This document shows positions 33,359 to 43,114 of a stretch of DNA of 64,000 nucleotides, piece by piece; the first letter of the stretch is position 1; every line of letters starts with the position of its first letter. Position numbers and translations under genes: made by a program. Below the pieces are notes generated by a model. The model did no database searches, was not told where the DNA came from, and saw only the letters and a list, made by a program, of their open reading frames with translations. Source of the stretch: Microtetraspora sp. NBRC 13810. GTDB lineage: Bacteria > Actinomycetota > Actinomycetes > Streptosporangiales > Streptosporangiaceae. The stretch is from contig NZ_BSRQ01000008.1 of NCBI RefSeq assembly GCF_030268685.1, positions 1-64,000 on the forward strand, written 5' to 3'.

Positions 33359-33574
33359 CCCGAAAGGCTATCGGCTCCCGGCATGGGAGAGCGTCGGGAG
33401 AACGGCCGGTTCGCATGACCGGGCCGCCGCCGCGTGCCCGCTCCCGCGGGGCGTTACTTCCCCCGGTGGCCGAGATGGCTGTCCCGGGGAGCACATCACT
33501 GTCACGCGCATGGCTAGATACGGCCGCTGTCCGTTGACGCACGGGTTTCGCTCCCCTTGAGTGGAGTGGACGGA

Positions 33575-36277
33575 ATGAGTGGCGGCGAGGGGAGGCTGCT
33601 TGTGCCGCAGGCGCAGCCGCTCAAACTGGGGGATCCCGCACGGCTCGGTGAGTACGAGCTCGTGGGGCGCCTCGGCGCGGGCGGGCAGGGAGTGGTCTAT
33701 CTCGCGTTCCATCCGCGGGCGGGAGCGGACCACTATGCGGTCAAGCTGCTGCACCAGAGCGTGGGGGACGACGCCGCCGACTTCCTGCGGGAGGTGGAGC
33801 TCGCCAAACAGGTCGCGAGGTTCTGCACCGCCCAGGTGATCGGCGCAGGGGTGGCCGAGGGGCAGCCCTACATCGTCAGCGAGTACGTCGACGGGCCGTC
33901 GCTGCACCAGGAGGTCGCGCTGGCCGGCCCGCGTTCCGGCGGCGCGCTGGAACGGCTGGCGATCAGCACCGCCACCGCGCTCGCCGCGATCCACCAGGCC
34001 GGGATCGTGCACCGCGACTTCAAGCCGCACAACGTGCTCCTCGGACCGGACGGCCCCCGGGTCATCGACTTCGGGCTGGCCCGCGCGCTCGACGCCGCCG
34101 CCACGCTCAGCGGGCGCGGCGCCGGCACCCCCGCCTACATGGCCCCGGAACAGGTCAGCGCCTCGGAGATCACCCCGGCCGCCGACGTCTTCGCCTGGGG
34201 CGCCACGATGTGCTTCGCCGCCAGCGGCCACGCGCCGTTCGGCCAGGACTCGATCCCCGCCGTCCTGCACCGCATCCTCACCGCCCGCCCCGACACCGCC
34301 CGGATCGGCGGACGCCTGCGCGACCTCGTGGAATCCTGCCTCGCCAAAGCCCCCTCCGCCCGCCCCACCAGCCGAGACCTCCTCCTCCACCTCCTCAGCG
34401 CCTCCCCACCGGGCACCCCCCTCCCGCTTCCCCCGGACGCCGCGCCTCCGAGAGATGTCGCCCCTCCCGCGGACACCATCCCTTCTGCGGGTGCCGTCCC
34501 TCCTGTGGGCTTTGTATCTCCTGTGGGTGTTGTTCCTTCTGCGGATGCTGTTCCTTCTGTGGGCGTTGTTCCTTCTGCGGGTGCCGTCCCTCCTGTGGGC
34601 GTTGTGCCGCCCGCTGTGGCGAGCCTTCTCGTTCCGCCGCCCTCCTGGTCCAGGCCGGAGCCCTCCTCGCCCCCGGTCTCCTCCTCCGCCTCCTTTTCCC
34701 CGGTCTCCTCACCCGCGGCCTCGTCCTGGCCCGGACACTCCACCCCGCCGGTGGCTCCGGTGTCCTCGTCGAGGCCGGAAGGCTCCTTCCCGCCGCCGGG
34801 ATCGGCTGCCGCGTCCGGGCCGGAAGGGTCCTCGCCGCCGGTCTCCTCTTCTCCGGTCTCCGCGTCCTGGCCTGGGCACTCCGTCCCGCCGGTGGCTCCG
34901 CTCAACGCCTCCGGGCCGGAGCGCTCCTTCCCGCCGTACCCGGTGCCTGAGCCGTACCCGGCTTCCGAGCCGTACCCGGTGCCGGAGCCCTCGGCCTGGC
35001 GGTCCGGCTCCGCGACTTCGGGTGAGGGACCGGTATGGACGGGCGCCGATGAGCCTGCCGGTCATCCGGGGTGGTCGCAGGGGGGCGTGTCCTCCCGCGA
35101 GCAGTCGGGCCCTTCCGAGTGGTCGTCAGGCTCTTCCGCGTTGTCGTCGGGCGGCGGGACGCAGGGGGCGTCCGAAGGTTCGTGGCCCTCCGAGGGGCCG
35201 TGGTCCTCCGGGGAGCGGACGGGGCGGTCGAGGGGCGTCGCGGAGGAGGAGGCGGGGCGGACGCATCCCGGCCGGGCCGCGACCAGGGCAGGCGTGGCGG
35301 TCTCCGGGTCGCTGTTGGTCAGCGCGGCCGTCCTGGTGGCCGTACTCGTGCCTGCGCTCACCTCGGCGGACCGGCGGGAGGTGGACGAGCAGGCCGTACG
35401 GCAGCCGCCCGCGACGAGCGCGCCCCTCGAACCCGACCTCACCCCCTCCCAGGCGGACGAGACCCGGGTCCCGGAGGAGGAACCGCAGCCCATAGCCCAG
35501 CAGCCCGCCCCGCCCCGGTCAGCCGCGGTCGTGACCGTACAGGTGCCCGAGCTGATCGGGATGGACCGTGCCACGGCCGAACGCGCCATCAAGCGCGCCG
35601 GGCTGGTCCTGGGCGACGCCGACGCGGTCGACTCGCCCGAGAAGATCGGCCGCGTGCTCGCCGCCCTCCCGGCCCCGGGCGACCGGGTGACGAAGGGTTC
35701 CAAGGTGAGCCTTGAGGTGTCGGCCGGCCTGAAGGTGCCCGAGGTGGCCGGACTGCGGCGCTCGGCGGCCGAATCGGCGCTGACCGGCGCAGGTCTGAGC
35801 GTCGGCCAACTGAGCAGGGTATGCGCCACGGACGCCGAAACCGGTCAGGTGGTCGCCAGCGACCCCGCCGCCGGGCAGCGGGTGCCGGGCGGCGCCCCGG
35901 TCTCCCTGACCGTCGCCCAGCGCGGCACGCCGGTGCCGCCGGTGGTCGGCGCCGGCCAGGCGGAGGCTCGGCGAAGCCTGCGCGCCGCCGGGCTCGCCGT
36001 ACGCGTCCAGGCGCGGATCGTCGACACCGCCGACCGGTTCGGCTCCGTGATCGGCCAGGACCCCGCCCCCGGCGCCTGCGGCACCCGCGGCACCACCGTC
36101 ACGATCACCGTGGCCGTCGAAGGCACCACCCTCCCCATCCCCGGCAGGGAACCCAGCCCCGGCCAGAACGGCGACGACGTCAGCGAGGAACCCCCCGAAA
36201 CACTCCCGGAGGCCACCACCGGCACCACGACCGGCGCCACCGCGGGCGCGACCACCGGCGCACCGGCCACCCCGTGA
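33575..36277 (+). CDS. Membrane Ser/Thr protein kinase with PASTA repeats
   Basis: A 900-residue receptor kinase. The kinase domain (about 25-285) has the glycine loop GAGGQG, ATP lysine K57, catalytic D148 in HRDFKPHN, the DFG aspartate D165 and MAPEQ, so it should be active. Residues about 290-560 are a Pro/Ser/Val-rich low-complexity juxtamembrane region, including a VVPSAGAV-type tandem repeat. A single transmembrane helix lies at about 572-595. The extracellular part has three PASTA-like repeats (about 650-850: VQVPELIGMDRATAERAI; GLKVPEVAGLRRSAAESAL; PVPPVVGAGQAEARRSL), which bind peptidoglycan fragments in relatives, and a Thr/Gly/Ala tail. It probably senses wall status during growth or sporulation. 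Confidence 0.92.
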   Translation: MSGGEGRLLVPQAQPLKLGDPARLGEYELVGRLGAGGQGVVYLAFHPRAGADHYAVKLLHQSVGDDAADFLREVELAKQVARFCTAQVIGAGVAEGQPYIVSEYVDGPSLHQEVALAGPRSGGALERLAISTATALAAIHQAGIVHRDFKPHNVLLGPDGPRVIDFGLARALDAAATLSGRGAGTPAYMAPEQVSASEITPAADVFAWGATMCFAASGHAPFGQDSIPAVLHRILTARPDTARIGGRLRDLVESCLAKAPSARPTSRDLLLHLLSASPPGTPLPLPPDAAPPRDVAPPADTIPSAGAVPPVGFVSPVGVVPSADAVPSVGVVPSAGAVPPVGVVPPAVASLLVPPPSWSRPEPSSPPVSSSASFSPVSSPAASSWPGHSTPPVAPVSSSRPEGSFPPPGSAAASGPEGSSPPVSSSPVSASWPGHSVPPVAPLNASGPERSFPPYPVPEPYPASEPYPVPEPSAWRSGSATSGEGPVWTGADEPAGHPGWSQGGVSSREQSGPSEWSSGSSALSSGGGTQGASEGSWPSEGPWSSGERTGRSRGVAEEEAGRTHPGRAATRAGVAVSGSLLVSAAVLVAVLVPALTSADRREVDEQAVRQPPATSAPLEPDLTPSQADETRVPEEEPQPIAQQPAPPRSAAVVTVQVPELIGMDRATAERAIKRAGLVLGDADAVDSPEKIGRVLAALPAPGDRVTKGSKVSLEVSAGLKVPEVAGLRRSAAESALTGAGLSVGQLSRVCATDAETGQVVASDPAAGQRVPGGAPVSLTVAQRGTPVPPVVGAGQAEARRSLRAAGLAVRVQARIVDTADRFGSVIGQDPAPGACGTRGTTVTITVAVEGTTLPIPGREPSPGQNGDDVSEEPPETLPEATTGTTTGATAGATTGAPATP

Positions 36278-37850: not shown

Positions 37851-39695
37851 TCACCTCCGGCGGTGGCGGCCGTGGGGTGTGGCGGTCCTGCCGGGGTCAC
37901 CGGACTGTTCCGGGCCGTGGGGGGCGTCGTGCTTGTCTTGTGGTGCCTTCGGGGGTGAGGCGGGAGCGAACCAGGAGGTGTGGTCGGTGGGCTGCTCCTG
38001 GGAGGGGGCGCCTGGTTCGGCGAGACGGCGTCGGCCGCGTGGGGTATCGCCGGGCGTGAACGTGCTGATCTCCTCGATCAGGCGGTCCTTGCGTCTGCGG
38101 CCTCGGTAGGGGAGGGCCGCCGCCTCGGTGGTGGTCGCCGGTTCCGTGGTGATCGCCGGGTCGGTGGTGGTTGTCGGGTCTGTGGTGGTCGTCGGCCTGG
38201 AGTCGGGGGCGGTGGCCGTGGTCGTGACGGCTGTCGACGTGAGGTGGGCGGGCGTGCCGGGGTTGTGCGTCGTGGACGGGGTGGTTGCGGTGTGGGTGGC
38301 CGTGGGGTCCGTTGTGGGGGGCTTTAGTGCCGTCGTGGTGGCGGGTGTCGGTTCCGTTGTCGTCGTGACCGTGGTGACGGGGGTGCGGCGGCGCCTGGCG
38401 CGGCGCTTGCCCGCCGTACGGCGTAGCCTGCCGGGCCGGCGCTCGGCCGGGCCTGCCGTACGCGGGCCCGTCGCCTGGGATGTCGCCTGGCCCGTCGCCG
38501 GAGAGAGCGCCTGGGACAGTGCCTGGGATGTCTCCTGTTCCCCGGCCCTCTGGGATGTGGTTGCCGGTGAGATGGTCGCGGACGCCCTGTTCCCGTACGT
38601 TGCCGGTGGTTTTCCGGCGCCCGAGGTGAGGGACGTCACGAGACGGCCCCGGAGCTGGCGGGTTCTGGCGTGGGCCACGACCGCCATGGCGGCGAGCAGG
38701 GCTGGGGCGATGACGGCCGGGCTGCCTAGCGTGGGCACGCCGTCGTACATCGGGAACACGGCGGAAACCGGGACGCCGGCCAGCGCCACGGTGTCGTGCG
38801 GCGCGACCCCGCCGCTGTCGCTACCCGACCGGGGCGTGACGGACGAGCCACCGGGGGTTGCGATGCTCGTGACGGGCGAGTTGTAGGGGGCGGCGGCGCT
38901 CGTGACGGGGGAGTTGTAGGCGGCGGCGAGGCTCGTGACGGTCGCCGGGGAGGAGGTGGCGGCGTTCGTGCTGGTGCCGGAGGGGGCGACGGTGCTTACA
39001 GCGGGGGCCGTTGTGGTGCTCGCGGCGGTGCTGGTGCGAAGGGTGGAGTCGTTGCCGGAGGTGGAGGCGGCGGCGGGGGAGAACGCGGCGGTGGCCGGGG
39101 TCGTGGTGGTGGACGCCTGGGAAGCCGCGGGGGCTGGTACGGCGGGGGCGGGGGTGCCGGGGGAGGGGGTGGGGGGTGCCGTGGTGGTGGAGGGGGTTTT
39201 GGTGGCGTTGAGGAGTTCCTGTTTGCGGTCCAGGCGTTCCTTGATCTTCTCGGGGTAGCCGTAGCCGACCACGAAGTTCTGGTCGCGGACCTTGCGGGCG
39301 GCGACGCCGCCGTCGATGTTGCCCTCGATCGTGTGGATCTTGTCGCCGTCGACCTTGGTCACGACGCCGACGTGGTCGATGCCCTCGACGCTCTTGCCGC
39401 CGCTCCAGTCGTAGAACACGAGCGCGCCCGGCTCGGGGGTCGTACCCCAGGCGTCGTGCTCCTGGAACCACTGGGCGTGCGCGACGGTGTAGGAGAACTG
39501 GCCGATCCAGTCCTGGTAGCCGAGCTTGTCGGCCGCCCAGGAGATGAACATGTCGCACCAGGGCTGGTTGGAGTAGTCGGAGTCGTGCTCGACGTTGTTG
39601 TACCAGGCGCCGAACTTGGTGTATCCGCCGCTCTTCTCCGCGTAACCGAGGTCCTTTTCGAGAAGCTTGATGAACTTTTCGATCTCTGGGCTCAT
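37851..39695 (-). CDS. CHAP-domain membrane protein with Thr/Ala-rich tail
   Basis: A 614-residue protein that starts directly with a CHAP (NlpC/P60-like) amidase domain (about 1-150), with catalytic Cys47 in NQPWCDMF, His108 in IDHVGVV and a polar third position near IEGN126. No signal peptide precedes it. Residues about 160-310 are Thr/Ala/Ser/Pro-rich, then one hydrophobic helix lies at about 317-337 (SPAVIAPALLAAMAVVAHA) followed by RTRQLRGR. A long disordered Thr-rich and Arg-rich tail ends the protein. If the helix is an anchor, the positive-inside rule puts CHAP outside and the tail inside. A peptidoglycan-cleaving role is inferred from the domain. Confidence 0.82.
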   Translation of the reverse strand: MSPEIEKFIKLLEKDLGYAEKSGGYTKFGAWYNNVEHDSDYSNQPWCDMFISWAADKLGYQDWIGQFSYTVAHAQWFQEHDAWGTTPEPGALVFYDWSGGKSVEGIDHVGVVTKVDGDKIHTIEGNIDGGVAARKVRDQNFVVGYGYPEKIKERLDRKQELLNATKTPSTTTAPPTPSPGTPAPAVPAPAASQASTTTTPATAAFSPAAASTSGNDSTLRTSTAASTTTAPAVSTVAPSGTSTNAATSSPATVTSLAAAYNSPVTSAAAPYNSPVTSIATPGGSSVTPRSGSDSGGVAPHDTVALAGVPVSAVFPMYDGVPTLGSPAVIAPALLAAMAVVAHARTRQLRGRLVTSLTSGAGKPPATYGNRASATISPATTSQRAGEQETSQALSQALSPATGQATSQATGPRTAGPAERRPGRLRRTAGKRRARRRRTPVTTVTTTTEPTPATTTALKPPTTDPTATHTATTPSTTHNPGTPAHLTSTAVTTTATAPDSRPTTTTDPTTTTDPAITTEPATTTEAAALPYRGRRRKDRLIEEISTFTPGDTPRGRRRLAEPGAPSQEQPTDHTSWFAPASPPKAPQDKHDAPHGPEQSGDPGRTATPHGRHRRR

Positions 39696-40090
39696 AGACG
39701 TCCGGGGGACCCGCCCGAAGCCCTCGGGGGTCGCGCCGCCTCGCGACCGGGCTACCGGTGGTCGGTTCGTTCGATGGCACGGGTGCACGCGCTGACTCCG
39801 GGGAGCTCGATCGCGTACGGGCGGTGCCGTAGGTCTCTGGTGACGAGCGAGACTACTCGGACAAAAGCGCAGGTCAAGCGGGTCCAAAGGGGCACCCAAG
39901 GGAAATCTCTGCACCCTGCGCCGACAAAAGCCCTGGTCAGAGCATGTTCCGCTTTATCCACCTTTATACCGGTATAACGTAAAAAATCTACCTTACGGTG
40001 TTTGGGGGGATCGGTGGATGCGGCCCTGGCGGGGTCTCACTCGGCGGACTCCGGCGCCACGTAGCAGAACGTGCTTCTAGCATGGTCGGC
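39696..40090. promoter_or_regulatory. Long leader of the CHAP gene with a palindrome at 39964-39977
   Basis: The gap between the divergent CHAP and thioesterase genes holds the perfect palindrome TTATACCGGTATAA (39964-39977) and an A/T-rich patch just after it, about 270 bases before the CHAP start. The intervening leader is long and GC-rich. I looked for a cyclic-di-AMP (ydaO) riboswitch, common before actinobacterial wall hydrolases, but did not find its conserved core. Confidence 0.5.
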
Positions 40091-40906: not shown

Positions 40907-43114
40907 TCACAGGAGCCCGTCGTCCGCCGGCGGCTCCGCGACCGCAGGCAGATCGCCCACCGGCCCGGCCCCGTCCTCGGGGTCGCCCGCCTCCCCGGAC
41001 CTCGGCGCCTCGGCGGTCCGGGGCGCGTCCCAGGTCCGGGGCGCGTCCCCGGTCTGCGGGGTCTCCTTGGTCTGCAGTGCGTCCGCGGTCCCTGGCGGCT
41101 CGTCCGGTGGCGGGGTCTCGCCGCCGCCGGTCTCGCTCGTCTCGTCCGGCTCACCGGGGGTGGGGCGCGGGCAGGCGGGACCGTCCAGCACGGCCTCGCT
41201 CACCTGGGGGCCGTTCGCGGCGGCCCGGCTGGTGGTCACCACGACGCCGAGATGTGCCCGCCTGCCGCAGGCGACCGCGCCGGGCTCACCGGCCAGCGCG
41301 ACGGTGTAGGTCCTGCTGCCCTTGAGCGTCCGGGTCTCGGTGTCCCTGGTCCTGGCCAGGCCGTCGTCGTCGCGCCGGGTGTAGGACACGCTCAGCCGTA
41401 CCGGGCCGGTGCCGTCCACCGTCACCCGGACCGTGCCCGCCGAGCCGTTCCACGCGACCACCCGCACGTCGCGCACGGCGGGCGCGGAACACGGCACGCC
41501 CGCGACCGTCGTGGTCCTGGACGCGGTGCCGCCGCCCGGCGACGTGGTCACGGTGAGCCGCCGGTAGAGGGTCGTCCCGCACGGCGGCGCGGCGTACGCG
41601 TGTGCCACCACCGGGGCGTAGGCGCTGGAACCGGACAGCGTGAAGGTCTGCGCGGGCGCCTCCACCAGCCGGTCCGGGGCCGGCCCCTCGGCGAACCGCG
41701 CCGTCACGGTCACCCTGGTGGCCGCCCCGGCGCGCAGGTTGATCGTCCCCTTGCCGCCGTCGAAGGAGGCGATGCTCAGCGCGCTCACCCCCTGCGCGGC
41801 CCCGGCGGGCCGGCCGCCGGTGGGCGCGGGCGAGGCCGCTCCGGAGGTGGGACGCGGGGTGTCCGTCGGCCGCTGGGGAGCGGCGGTGGTGGCCTCGGGG
41901 GCCGGCGCCGTCCGCTCGCCGGGCTCCTCTCCGGCGTCGCCGCCCGTGGGCAGGGCCGGGTCGCCGTCGTGGGGTTCGCGCGGCGGAGGCGCGAGGAAGG
42001 TGTCCGGCACGCCGTCCGAGGGACCGCGGTCGGCGGACAGCAGCACCGCGGTGGCCGCGACCGCCGCCAGCGTCGCCATGATCGCGAAGCGCGGCTTCGG
42101 CCGGTACGGCGCCCGCGTCCGCGGCAGCCGACGCGCCCCGCCCACCCGGCGGGCCCACCTCCCCGCGGCGGACCTCTCGCCCGGCCCCGTGCCGGCAGCC
42201 GCACCCGGCCCGGAGGAGGATCCGGACTCCGGGACGGGCTCGATCCTGGGGTGCGCCCGGGAAGCCTGGCCGCGGCGGGACGCGGCGGCCGAGGCGCGGG
42301 CGCCCGGCGCGGCGTTGGCCAGCGGGAAGCGCAGCGCGAGCATGGTGGCCAGCTCCGCGAGGTGCCGCCGCCCGCGCTTCTCCCACGCGGGCCCGTACGC
42401 CGCCCGCGCCGCCTCCTCCAGGTCCTCCACGAACGCCCGCCCGTCCAGCGGGCGCGGCGGTCCGGCGGCGGGCGGGACGGCCAGGCCGGCGGCGACCAGG
42501 GCGCGCACCGAGCTTGGCACGTTCCCCGCCGGGTCCTCCTCGCGTGGCGGGCGGCCGGTGAGGCACTCCACGAAGACGCACGTCGCCATGTACAGGTCGG
42601 CCGCCCGCTCGCCCAGCCCGGCCCCGCCGGACGGCATCGGGTACGGCGGCGGCCCGCCCGGCATGGCCAGGCCGAAGTCCGCGATCTTGGAAGTGCCGTC
42701 CGCCTGGACGTAGACGTTCTCCGGCTTGACCGCCCGGTGCGCCACCCCGGTGTCGTGCGCCGCCGACAGCCCCAGCAGCGCGCCCTTGAACAGCGTCAGC
42801 GCCGCCTCGGGGCTCATCGTGCGGTGCTCGGTCAGGATGACGCGCAGCGACACCCCGTCGACCAGCTCCGTGACGAGCGCCGCGCTGGTCGGCGTCTCGA
42901 CGTACTCGTGTAATCGCACGACGTGCGGGTTCTCCAGCTCGACCAGGTGGTGCGCCTCGCCGCGGAACCTGGCGAGGAACTCCGGATCGGCCCACAACAT
43001 GGGCCGCAGGAACCTGATCGCCACATAGGCCCCCGTGGCCGTGTACGTCGCGAGGACCACGCGGCCCGCGCCTCCCGTGCCGAGCTGACGAACTTCGCGG
43101 TATCCAGGTACCAT
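40907..43114 (-). CDS. Ser/Thr kinase-like membrane protein, predicted pseudokinase
   Basis: A 735-residue protein with an N-terminal kinase-like domain (1-265) of the actinobacterial type. The ATP lysine of strand 3 is Arg (R34 in VAIRFL, codon AGG) and the catalytic Asp of HRD is Ala (A128 in HRAVKPENV, codon GCG). The DFG aspartate D146 is present and the glycine loop is GTGGAG. The domain is therefore probably catalytically dead or much weakened. A basic stretch, a transmembrane helix (about 343-360, FAIMATLAAVAATAVLL) and an extracellular part with two Ig-like segments (about 450-650) follow, then a Pro/Glu/Thr-rich tail. It may work as a scaffold or sensor. Confidence 0.85.
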   Translation of the reverse strand: MVPGYREVRQLGTGGAGRVVLATYTATGAYVAIRFLRPMLWADPEFLARFRGEAHHLVELENPHVVRLHEYVETPTSAALVTELVDGVSLRVILTEHRTMSPEAALTLFKGALLGLSAAHDTGVAHRAVKPENVYVQADGTSKIADFGLAMPGGPPPYPMPSGGAGLGERAADLYMATCVFVECLTGRPPREEDPAGNVPSSVRALVAAGLAVPPAAGPPRPLDGRAFVEDLEEAARAAYGPAWEKRGRRHLAELATMLALRFPLANAAPGARASAAASRRGQASRAHPRIEPVPESGSSSGPGAAAGTGPGERSAAGRWARRVGGARRLPRTRAPYRPKPRFAIMATLAAVAATAVLLSADRGPSDGVPDTFLAPPPREPHDGDPALPTGGDAGEEPGERTAPAPEATTAAPQRPTDTPRPTSGAASPAPTGGRPAGAAQGVSALSIASFDGGKGTINLRAGAATRVTVTARFAEGPAPDRLVEAPAQTFTLSGSSAYAPVVAHAYAAPPCGTTLYRRLTVTTSPGGGTASRTTTVAGVPCSAPAVRDVRVVAWNGSAGTVRVTVDGTGPVRLSVSYTRRDDDGLARTRDTETRTLKGSRTYTVALAGEPGAVACGRRAHLGVVVTTSRAAANGPQVSEAVLDGPACPRPTPGEPDETSETGGGETPPPDEPPGTADALQTKETPQTGDAPRTWDAPRTAEAPRSGEAGDPEDGAGPVGDLPAVAEPPADDGLL

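Follow-up and report, generated by a model that had tools for sequence, protein, structure and literature searches.

A predicted transmembrane pseudokinase of Microtetraspora belongs to a clade sharing replacement of the catalytic lysine and aspartate and a strongly constrained N-lobe

Bacterial pseudokinases are known and are largely unexplored by experiment; a review published in 2025 names seven families (PMC12599244). In the family descriptions given there, all three catalytic residues are changed in ActPs1, and about 60% of its members lack helix G. ActPs2 proteins are actinobacterial and have a C-terminal transmembrane region; their strand-3 Lys is replaced by Arg and their HRD Asp by Asn, DFG is mostly deleted, and insertions of 32 and 250 residues are present in about 90% of them. 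ActPs3, the MviN family of mycobacteria, is likewise actinobacterial and membrane located, with a deletion in the activation loop and constraint on the N-lobe; its motifs are completely degraded, and the MviN domain binds neither ATP nor Mg. The membrane-associated DYD family has Arg for Lys, no helix-C Glu and the motif from which it takes its name. The same source places the MviN pseudokinase domain in a transmembrane protein involved in peptidoglycan synthesis and reports that it forms a back-to-back dimer, with family-specific constraints at the N-lobe interface; EssB/YukC is described there as a membrane pseudokinase scaffold (PMC12599244). The active kinase PknB also makes back-to-back dimers, which are proposed to be allosteric (PMC6333020, PMC6428115). 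Among eukaryotic pseudokinases, KSR1 and EphB6 carry the Lys-to-Arg change and retain binding of ATP or another ligand (PMC12599244).

Here, we describe a kinase-like receptor candidate encoded in a 64,000-nucleotide stretch of the Microtetraspora sp. NBRC 13810 genome (contig NZ_BSRQ01000008.1, positions 1 to 64,000), referred to below as the window. The gene and the landmarks of its cytoplasmic and membrane parts are as follows.

40907..43114, minus strand: coding sequence of the predicted transmembrane pseudokinase, 735 aa, ATG start (ORF list; frames open in clade orthologues)
42830..43114, minus strand: N-lobe, residues 1-95, together with the tail the most constrained part (72/95 sites invariant in six clade members)
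43013..43015, minus strand: codon AGG of R34, which replaces the strand-3 lysine (Arg in 7/7 clade members, Lys in 102/102 intact rows)
42716..42739, minus strand: catalytic loop HRAVKPEN, with A128 encoded by GCG at 42731-42733 and N133 kept (position 128 is Ala in 5/7 and Ser in 2/7 clade members)
42671..42679, minus strand: intact DFG motif, D146-F147-G148 (sequence)
42599..42670, minus strand: eroded and shortened activation segment, GTPxYMAPE lost (alignment; pLDDT <50 at residues 148-168)
42515..42547, minus strand: site of a deleted stretch expected to hold helix G of the intact orthologues (alignment)
42323..42409, minus strand: tail after the kinase domain, residues 236-264, common to active orthologues (23/29 sites invariant in six clade members)
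42032..42088, minus strand: transmembrane segment at residues 343-361, following basic residues (hydropathy)

The preliminary description of this gene had reported Arg for the strand-3 Lys and Ala for the HRD Asp, with the glycine loop and DFG remaining, and all of this was confirmed, the two substitutions at the codon level; inspection of the sequence also showed E53, K130 and N133 to be present. Two of the three catalytic residues are thus replaced, in this protein and in all seven members of the clade described below, in agreement with the sequence definition of a bacterial pseudokinase, which asks for at least one such replacement shared by orthologues. Lys, the HRD Asp and APE, as expected of an active Hanks-type Ser/Thr kinase, are absent, and DFG is present. 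The kinase fold itself is recognized by Pfam PF00069 at 93 bits (cut-off 31.7). However, the match covers residues 5-150 only, which correspond to model positions 1-145 of 263, because the activation segment is short (by about 7 residues in the alignment with orthologues), GTPxYMAPE is replaced by GPPPYPMPSG, and the stretch that we take, from the general kinase fold, to hold helix G is missing. The earlier view of an otherwise well-preserved domain is therefore wrong for the C-lobe. A WNK-like relocated lysine was considered and rejected, as residues 1-98 contain no Lys in the window protein and five other clade members (the diverged member L124 lay outside this check). The transmembrane helix reported previously corresponds to a 19-residue hydrophobic stretch (residues 343-361; mean Kyte-Doolittle hydropathy, 2.17) that follows a basic stretch. 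The tail between the kinase domain and the membrane carries the motif YGPxWExRGRRHLAELATxLALxFPLA (42323-42409, minus strand), which is conserved in intact and catalytically altered members alike.

To place the protein among its relatives, a DNA search was run over 297 genomes drawn from the larger family that includes the window genome and Nonomuraea; some match was found in 296, many of these weak. The six top genomes, namely, that of the window and five others, fall into genus groups g1, g34, g70 and g74 (three genomes), and all six combine Arg34, HRA or HRS, and DFG with a shortened activation segment and loss of helix G. A seventh genome (G011, genus group g12, locus L124) belongs with them and has further changes, E53 to D, K130 to G and N133 to S. 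Because kinase domains were scored for the best matches only (29 loci of other genomes and 80 further loci), the clade could be larger. Altogether, 130 family rows were scored, paralogues included, with the window's own genus group represented by the window genome alone. Lys, the HRD Asp and the DFG Asp are all kept in 118 of the 130. Four paralogues in the window genome (L058, L067, L068 and L069) retain these three residues and are candidate partners of the window protein. The 12 altered rows comprise the seven members of this clade, three rows with HRG and an intact Lys (L062, L146 and L159), the paralogue L061, in which only Lys is changed, to Arg, and L188, with GFG. Given Arg at position 34 in every clade member versus Lys in every intact orthologue row, the substitution at this site is more than chance.

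A tree was built from 66 of the 130 rows after removal of the trait columns; these rows include 45 intact ones chosen at random and one row added by choice. In this tree, the seven altered members, each from a different genome and together spanning five genus groups, fall into a single clade (support, 100/99). Its sister, at 99/95, is a group of 16 rows with Lys and the HRD Asp, Nonomuraea gerenzanensis among them. L124, the most diverged member, has a long terminal branch, and its precise position is uncertain. We infer a single catalytic loss that precedes the divergence of the five genus groups. The preliminary description had held that intact orthologues would point to a recent local mutation. 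Orthologues with both residues do exist, in other genera, and this is the one observation on the side of a recent mutation, a pseudogene or a sequencing error. Against it stand seven genomes with the same changes in a single old clade, Arg34 and Ala or Ser128 being common to all seven when related genera are aligned. The frames are open in the whole-gene loci of six members, and the seventh has an open frame of 572 aa; to this is added the strong constraint on the N-lobe described below. Mutation or decay of recent date is refuted by the tree, the scoring of the family rows and the constraint, and this explanation is exceedingly improbable: the loss is older than the clade.

A protein search of annotated plasmid records identified Nonomuraea gerenzanensis (an 11.9-Mb record) and, farther off, plasmids of Streptomyces and Kitasatospora, all of these matches having Lys, HRD, and APE or PPE; a scan of genome contigs for relatives matched only two distant kinases. 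The N. gerenzanensis protein (L033:9001-11082) is a positional orthologue with 51% identity overall to the window protein. Intact orthologues share with the window protein the order of kinase domain, tail, membrane segment and extracellular part; in contrast to it, they carry Lys34, HRD and GTPxYMAPE, and the N. gerenzanensis protein lacks extracellular domain 1.

Other members of the family have also changed at conserved kinase positions. In the Nonomuraea-type sister group, 27 of 31 rows have Asp instead of the helix-C Glu and 5 have Thr instead of Lys130, whereas Lys34, the HRD Asp and the DFG Asp stand. The HRG rows sit elsewhere in the tree: L062 and L146 (genus group g6) pair at 100/100, and L159 (g64) pairs with the intact L095 at 100/98. 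Because L159 adjoins an intact row and lies apart from the other pair, the HRD Asp was probably lost at least two more times in the family, as judged from these sequences. The tree tool counts a single HRG change, since unlabelled intact rows such as L095 are omitted from its count, so two is our own reading; the pattern may instead reflect one loss followed by a regain.

The clade was further analysed to determine which parts of the protein are under constraint. Rates were estimated pairwise (NG86) and are given as medians over 14 clade pairs, 366 pairs of the sister group, 2237 pairs of other active rows and 4698 pairs of all active rows, between-group pairs included; the pairs lack independence, and divergence at synonymous sites is large. 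In that order, N-lobe dN divided by the dS of the whole domain is 0.14, 0.21, 0.35 and 0.40, and only 2.9% of all active pairs reach a value as low as that of the clade. The C-lobe dN/dS values are 0.56, 0.32, 0.42 and 0.55; taken alone, therefore, the C-lobe rate of the clade is not special in comparison with all active pairs. The ratio of N-lobe to C-lobe substitution is independent of dS; it amounts to 0.25 in the clade versus 0.65, 0.82 and 0.72, and 0.3% of the 4698 active pairs reach a value as low as that of the clade. For the catalytic stretch (residues 96-150), the values are 0.29, 0.26, 0.19 and 0.30, and for the tail they are 0.15, 0.14, 0.20 and 0.20. Counts of sites give a similar picture: those invariant in six clade members number 72 of 95 in the N-lobe, 32 of 55 in the catalytic stretch, 25 of 85 in the C-lobe and 23 of 29 in the tail.

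Invariance in six of the seven members extends to Gly12, Gly14, Gly17, E53, N133 and D146, and DFG is intact in all seven. Eight signature sites, all in the N-lobe (34, 38, 41, 42, 64, 69, 77 and 80), are invariant in these six and have the same residue in fewer than 10% of intact rows; for example, Trp41 replaces the Arg or Lys of intact rows. L124 shares the signature at sites 34, 38, 42, 69 and 80 and lacks W41, H64 and S77. We read this constraint as that of a gene in use, rather than one that is decaying.

These observations bear on two alternative accounts of the kinase domain. It could be a passenger, the selected function being extracellular and the cytoplasmic part a folded anchor in slow decay; the variable C-lobe, with less than a third of its sites invariant, would suit such an anchor, as would the tendency of the family to lose catalytic residues (HRG in L062/L146 and L159, Asp for the helix-C Glu in the sister group). 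However, N-lobe dN is the lowest of all regions, extracellular domains included, in four of five clade pairs (the exception is one pair with a slightly lower value for the catalytic stretch), and the tail is conserved. A mere anchor would not show such constraint, which makes a passenger role rather unlikely. Alternatively, the domain might bind ATP and retain weak or altered catalysis, through Arg34 and a displaced base or as another nucleotidyl transfer, in which case it would not be a true pseudokinase. SelO and SidJ are pseudokinases with new enzymatic activities (PMC12599244), six of the seven members have kept the glycine loop, Glu53, Asn133 and DFG without change, and the catalytic stretch is at most mildly relaxed. 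Yet Lys and Asp are both gone with no other N-lobe Lys to serve, the activation segment and the helix-G stretch are missing, and L124 has lost Glu53 and Asn133. We consider residual catalysis fairly improbable.

The extracellular region comprises two segments.

41480..41779, minus strand: extracellular domain 1, probably a beta-sandwich, residues 446-545, with conserved Cys512/Cys542 (alignment; low-confidence model)
41150..41470, minus strand: extracellular domain 2, probably a beta-sandwich, residues 549-655, with conserved Cys616/Cys648 (alignment; low-confidence model)

The two are weakly alike (29% over 84 residues; E, 3e-4), and the Cys pairs of both are kept in six clade members and the intact L078; in L076 and L062, domain 2 has no such pair. 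No Pfam match was found in the extracellular part. Folded alone from its single sequence, this part gave a model of pLDDT 65 in which each domain has seven strands (14 in all), and a Foldseek search with the model returned weak matches (TM of about 0.3) that include RbmA, transglutaminases and the fibronectin domains of Tie2. In this low-confidence model, the region is probably two tandem beta-sandwich domains, which may be of the Ig/FN3 type, as the Ig-like region proposed earlier would suggest; neither the model nor its matches are strong enough to assign a fold family. For the kinase domain, AlphaFold2 run with four sequences gave pLDDT of 76-90 in 10-residue blocks over residues 1-90 of the N-lobe and low confidence in the C-lobe, and the first Foldseek matches of the model among solved structures are the mycobacterial PknA, PknB, PknE and PknI.

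The gene neighbourhoods of 16 records (six from the clade, three HRG and seven intact) were also compared. Two neighbours in the window are of particular relevance.

37851..39914, minus strand: CHAP-domain protein, a candidate cell-wall hydrolase and the steadiest neighbour (16/16 neighbourhoods)
33557..36277, plus strand: Ser/Thr kinase with PASTA domains, its K and D intact, a long-standing neighbour that is not specific to the pseudokinase

A CHAP-domain gene lies nearby on the same strand in every neighbourhood, and thioesterase and beta-lactamase-fold genes are each found in 8 of 16. The pseudokinase clade and the seven intact orthologues checked occupy the same locus, and the constant CHAP neighbour may link the receptor family to the cell wall. 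The CHAP-domain protein of the window carries a long tail rich in Thr, Pro and Ala.

The preliminary description had placed an active PASTA kinase 4.6 kb away and suggested it as a partner. The distance (from the ORF end at 36277 to the pseudokinase ORF) is correct, and the kinase has K and D in place. A pseudokinase dedicated to activating or restraining this neighbour would agree with the PASTA kinase orthologue found in four of the six other clade neighbourhoods, where it lies to the same side of the gene but on the opposite strand, at 6-29 kb. However, the orthologue occurs in the same arrangement in 10 of the 16 records, about 6 to 29 kb away, and six of these are non-clade records (five of seven intact and one of three HRG, the last by a 66-residue match), at about 9-29 kb. 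Not all stretches reached far enough to exclude a more distant copy in the remaining records; for the two clade records concerned, the G075 contig ends about 3 kb past the gene, and G011 was viewed over about 20 kb only. Because the arrangement is also found beside intact orthologues, it predates the catalytic loss. Furthermore, the two genes in the window are convergent, with other genes between them. The window protein itself scores 124 bits against the PASTA kinase model NCBIfam NF033483, below its cut-off of 450, and a profile search found no PASTA match in the whole protein or in its extracellular part. A dedicated PASTA partnership is decidedly unlikely. The earlier proposal of a pseudokinase receptor is supported, and is strengthened by the double substitution being common to one monophyletic clade that spans seven genomes and five genus groups; the special partner is not supported, and the C-lobe is not well preserved.

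Taken together, the sequences make it moderately likely that the protein is a retained, noncatalytic descendant of an active transmembrane Ser/Thr kinase, which would take part in receptor signaling without phosphotransfer through its N-lobe. The sequences show that the orthologous kinase of the clade has Arg34, Ala or Ser128, a short activation segment and no helix-G stretch, that its gene stayed open, and that the N-lobe, tail, membrane segment and two extracellular domains were kept. Under this explanation, a cell-surface ligand would be recognized by the outer domains, with assembly of the protein relaying the signal inward; the N-lobe would bind and allosterically control a partner, either another copy or an active kinase of the same cell. 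Binding of ATP might persist in a structural role, as cofactor or switch, without phosphotransfer. Such binding is possible in six of the seven members because the glycine loop, Glu53, Asn133 and DFG are kept; L124, without E53, K130, N133, W41, H64 and S77, implies that nucleotide binding and those residues are not essential in all.

The surface used for such assembly would differ from that of PknB. At the positions that we presume to match the PknB back-to-back contacts R10, L33 and D76 (the offset is our assumption), the window protein has G4, T27 and E70. Only the acid is kept, and a literal PknB back-to-back interface was rejected; another surface must therefore serve if the reading of N-lobe assembly is right. 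In a narrower version of the favored explanation, the protein would be an allosteric subunit whose N-lobe switches an active Hanks-type kinase when an outside ligand binds, with bound ATP as the switch. KSR acts in this way on RAF in animals. We regard this version as possible and clearly less probable than the general one.

Loss of catalytic residues is not confined to this locus in the genome. The kinome was counted as 69 kinase matches, two of them under the family cut-off, and 59 keep Lys, the HRD Asp and the DFG Asp. Besides the window protein, six loci are altered; L235, L237 and L240 gave short alignments only and fell outside judgement. L226 has VRLL with an intact HRD, thus a change of Lys to Arg alone, L232 has HQGFTPHN, and L233 has VVVR with HGD and NFG. 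In L238 (HTALTPDH) and L239 (HLCLRPDK, under the Pfam cut-off), the Lys column is unaligned. The sixth, L234 (G000:C1:156805-157368), is likely a second pseudokinase, with Arg for the strand-3 Lys and HRA (VIRLF, HRALSPGN and DVG); its sequence looks clearly different from that of the window protein, suggesting an independent origin of these two changes. Kinase-like proteins with missing catalytic residues are thus not exceptional in this genome.

The present system provides a single orthologous set, at one locus where checked, that holds intact kinases, probably three losses of the HRD Asp and one conserved clade without the catalytic residues, in which the N-lobe is more constrained relative to the C-lobe than in active relatives. 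With such matched active and inactive orthologues, the role of a dead bacterial kinase, and the part of it that is responsible, becomes testable, and the change from an enzyme to a nonenzymatic signaling protein can be studied in bacteria. Among the titles and opening lines of abstracts in the pseudokinase papers searched, no paper pointed to this clade and none paired a pseudokinase with Nonomuraea.

The four families outlined at the start were compared with the window protein by their descriptions in the review, and membership in each was rejected on motifs. The window protein resembles ActPs2 in its actinobacterial origin, strand-3 Arg and transmembrane region; it differs in Ala or Ser at the HRD Asp, an intact DFG and no such insertions, so that the strand-3 Arg is the only one of the ActPs2 motif changes that it has. 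It shares with ActPs3 the membrane location, the shortened activation loop and the constraint on the N-lobe, whereas its glycine loop, HRxxKPEN frame and DFG remain. MviN itself is a lipid flippase. The absence of helix G recalls ActPs1, in which DFG is changed as well, and the Arg and membrane association recall DYD, from which the clade differs by the helix-C Glu (Glu53 in 6/7 members) and DFG (7/7). The likeness to KSR1 and EphB6, which belong to an unrelated eukaryotic lineage, is one of logic only. As judged from the sequences and these descriptions, the combination of Arg, HR(A/S), intact DFG, helix-C Glu and no helix G fits none of the four families compared (ActPs1 to ActPs3 and DYD, with GLW, CP1 and DLHK of the seven lying outside the comparison) and would mark a pseudokinase clade distinct from each of them.
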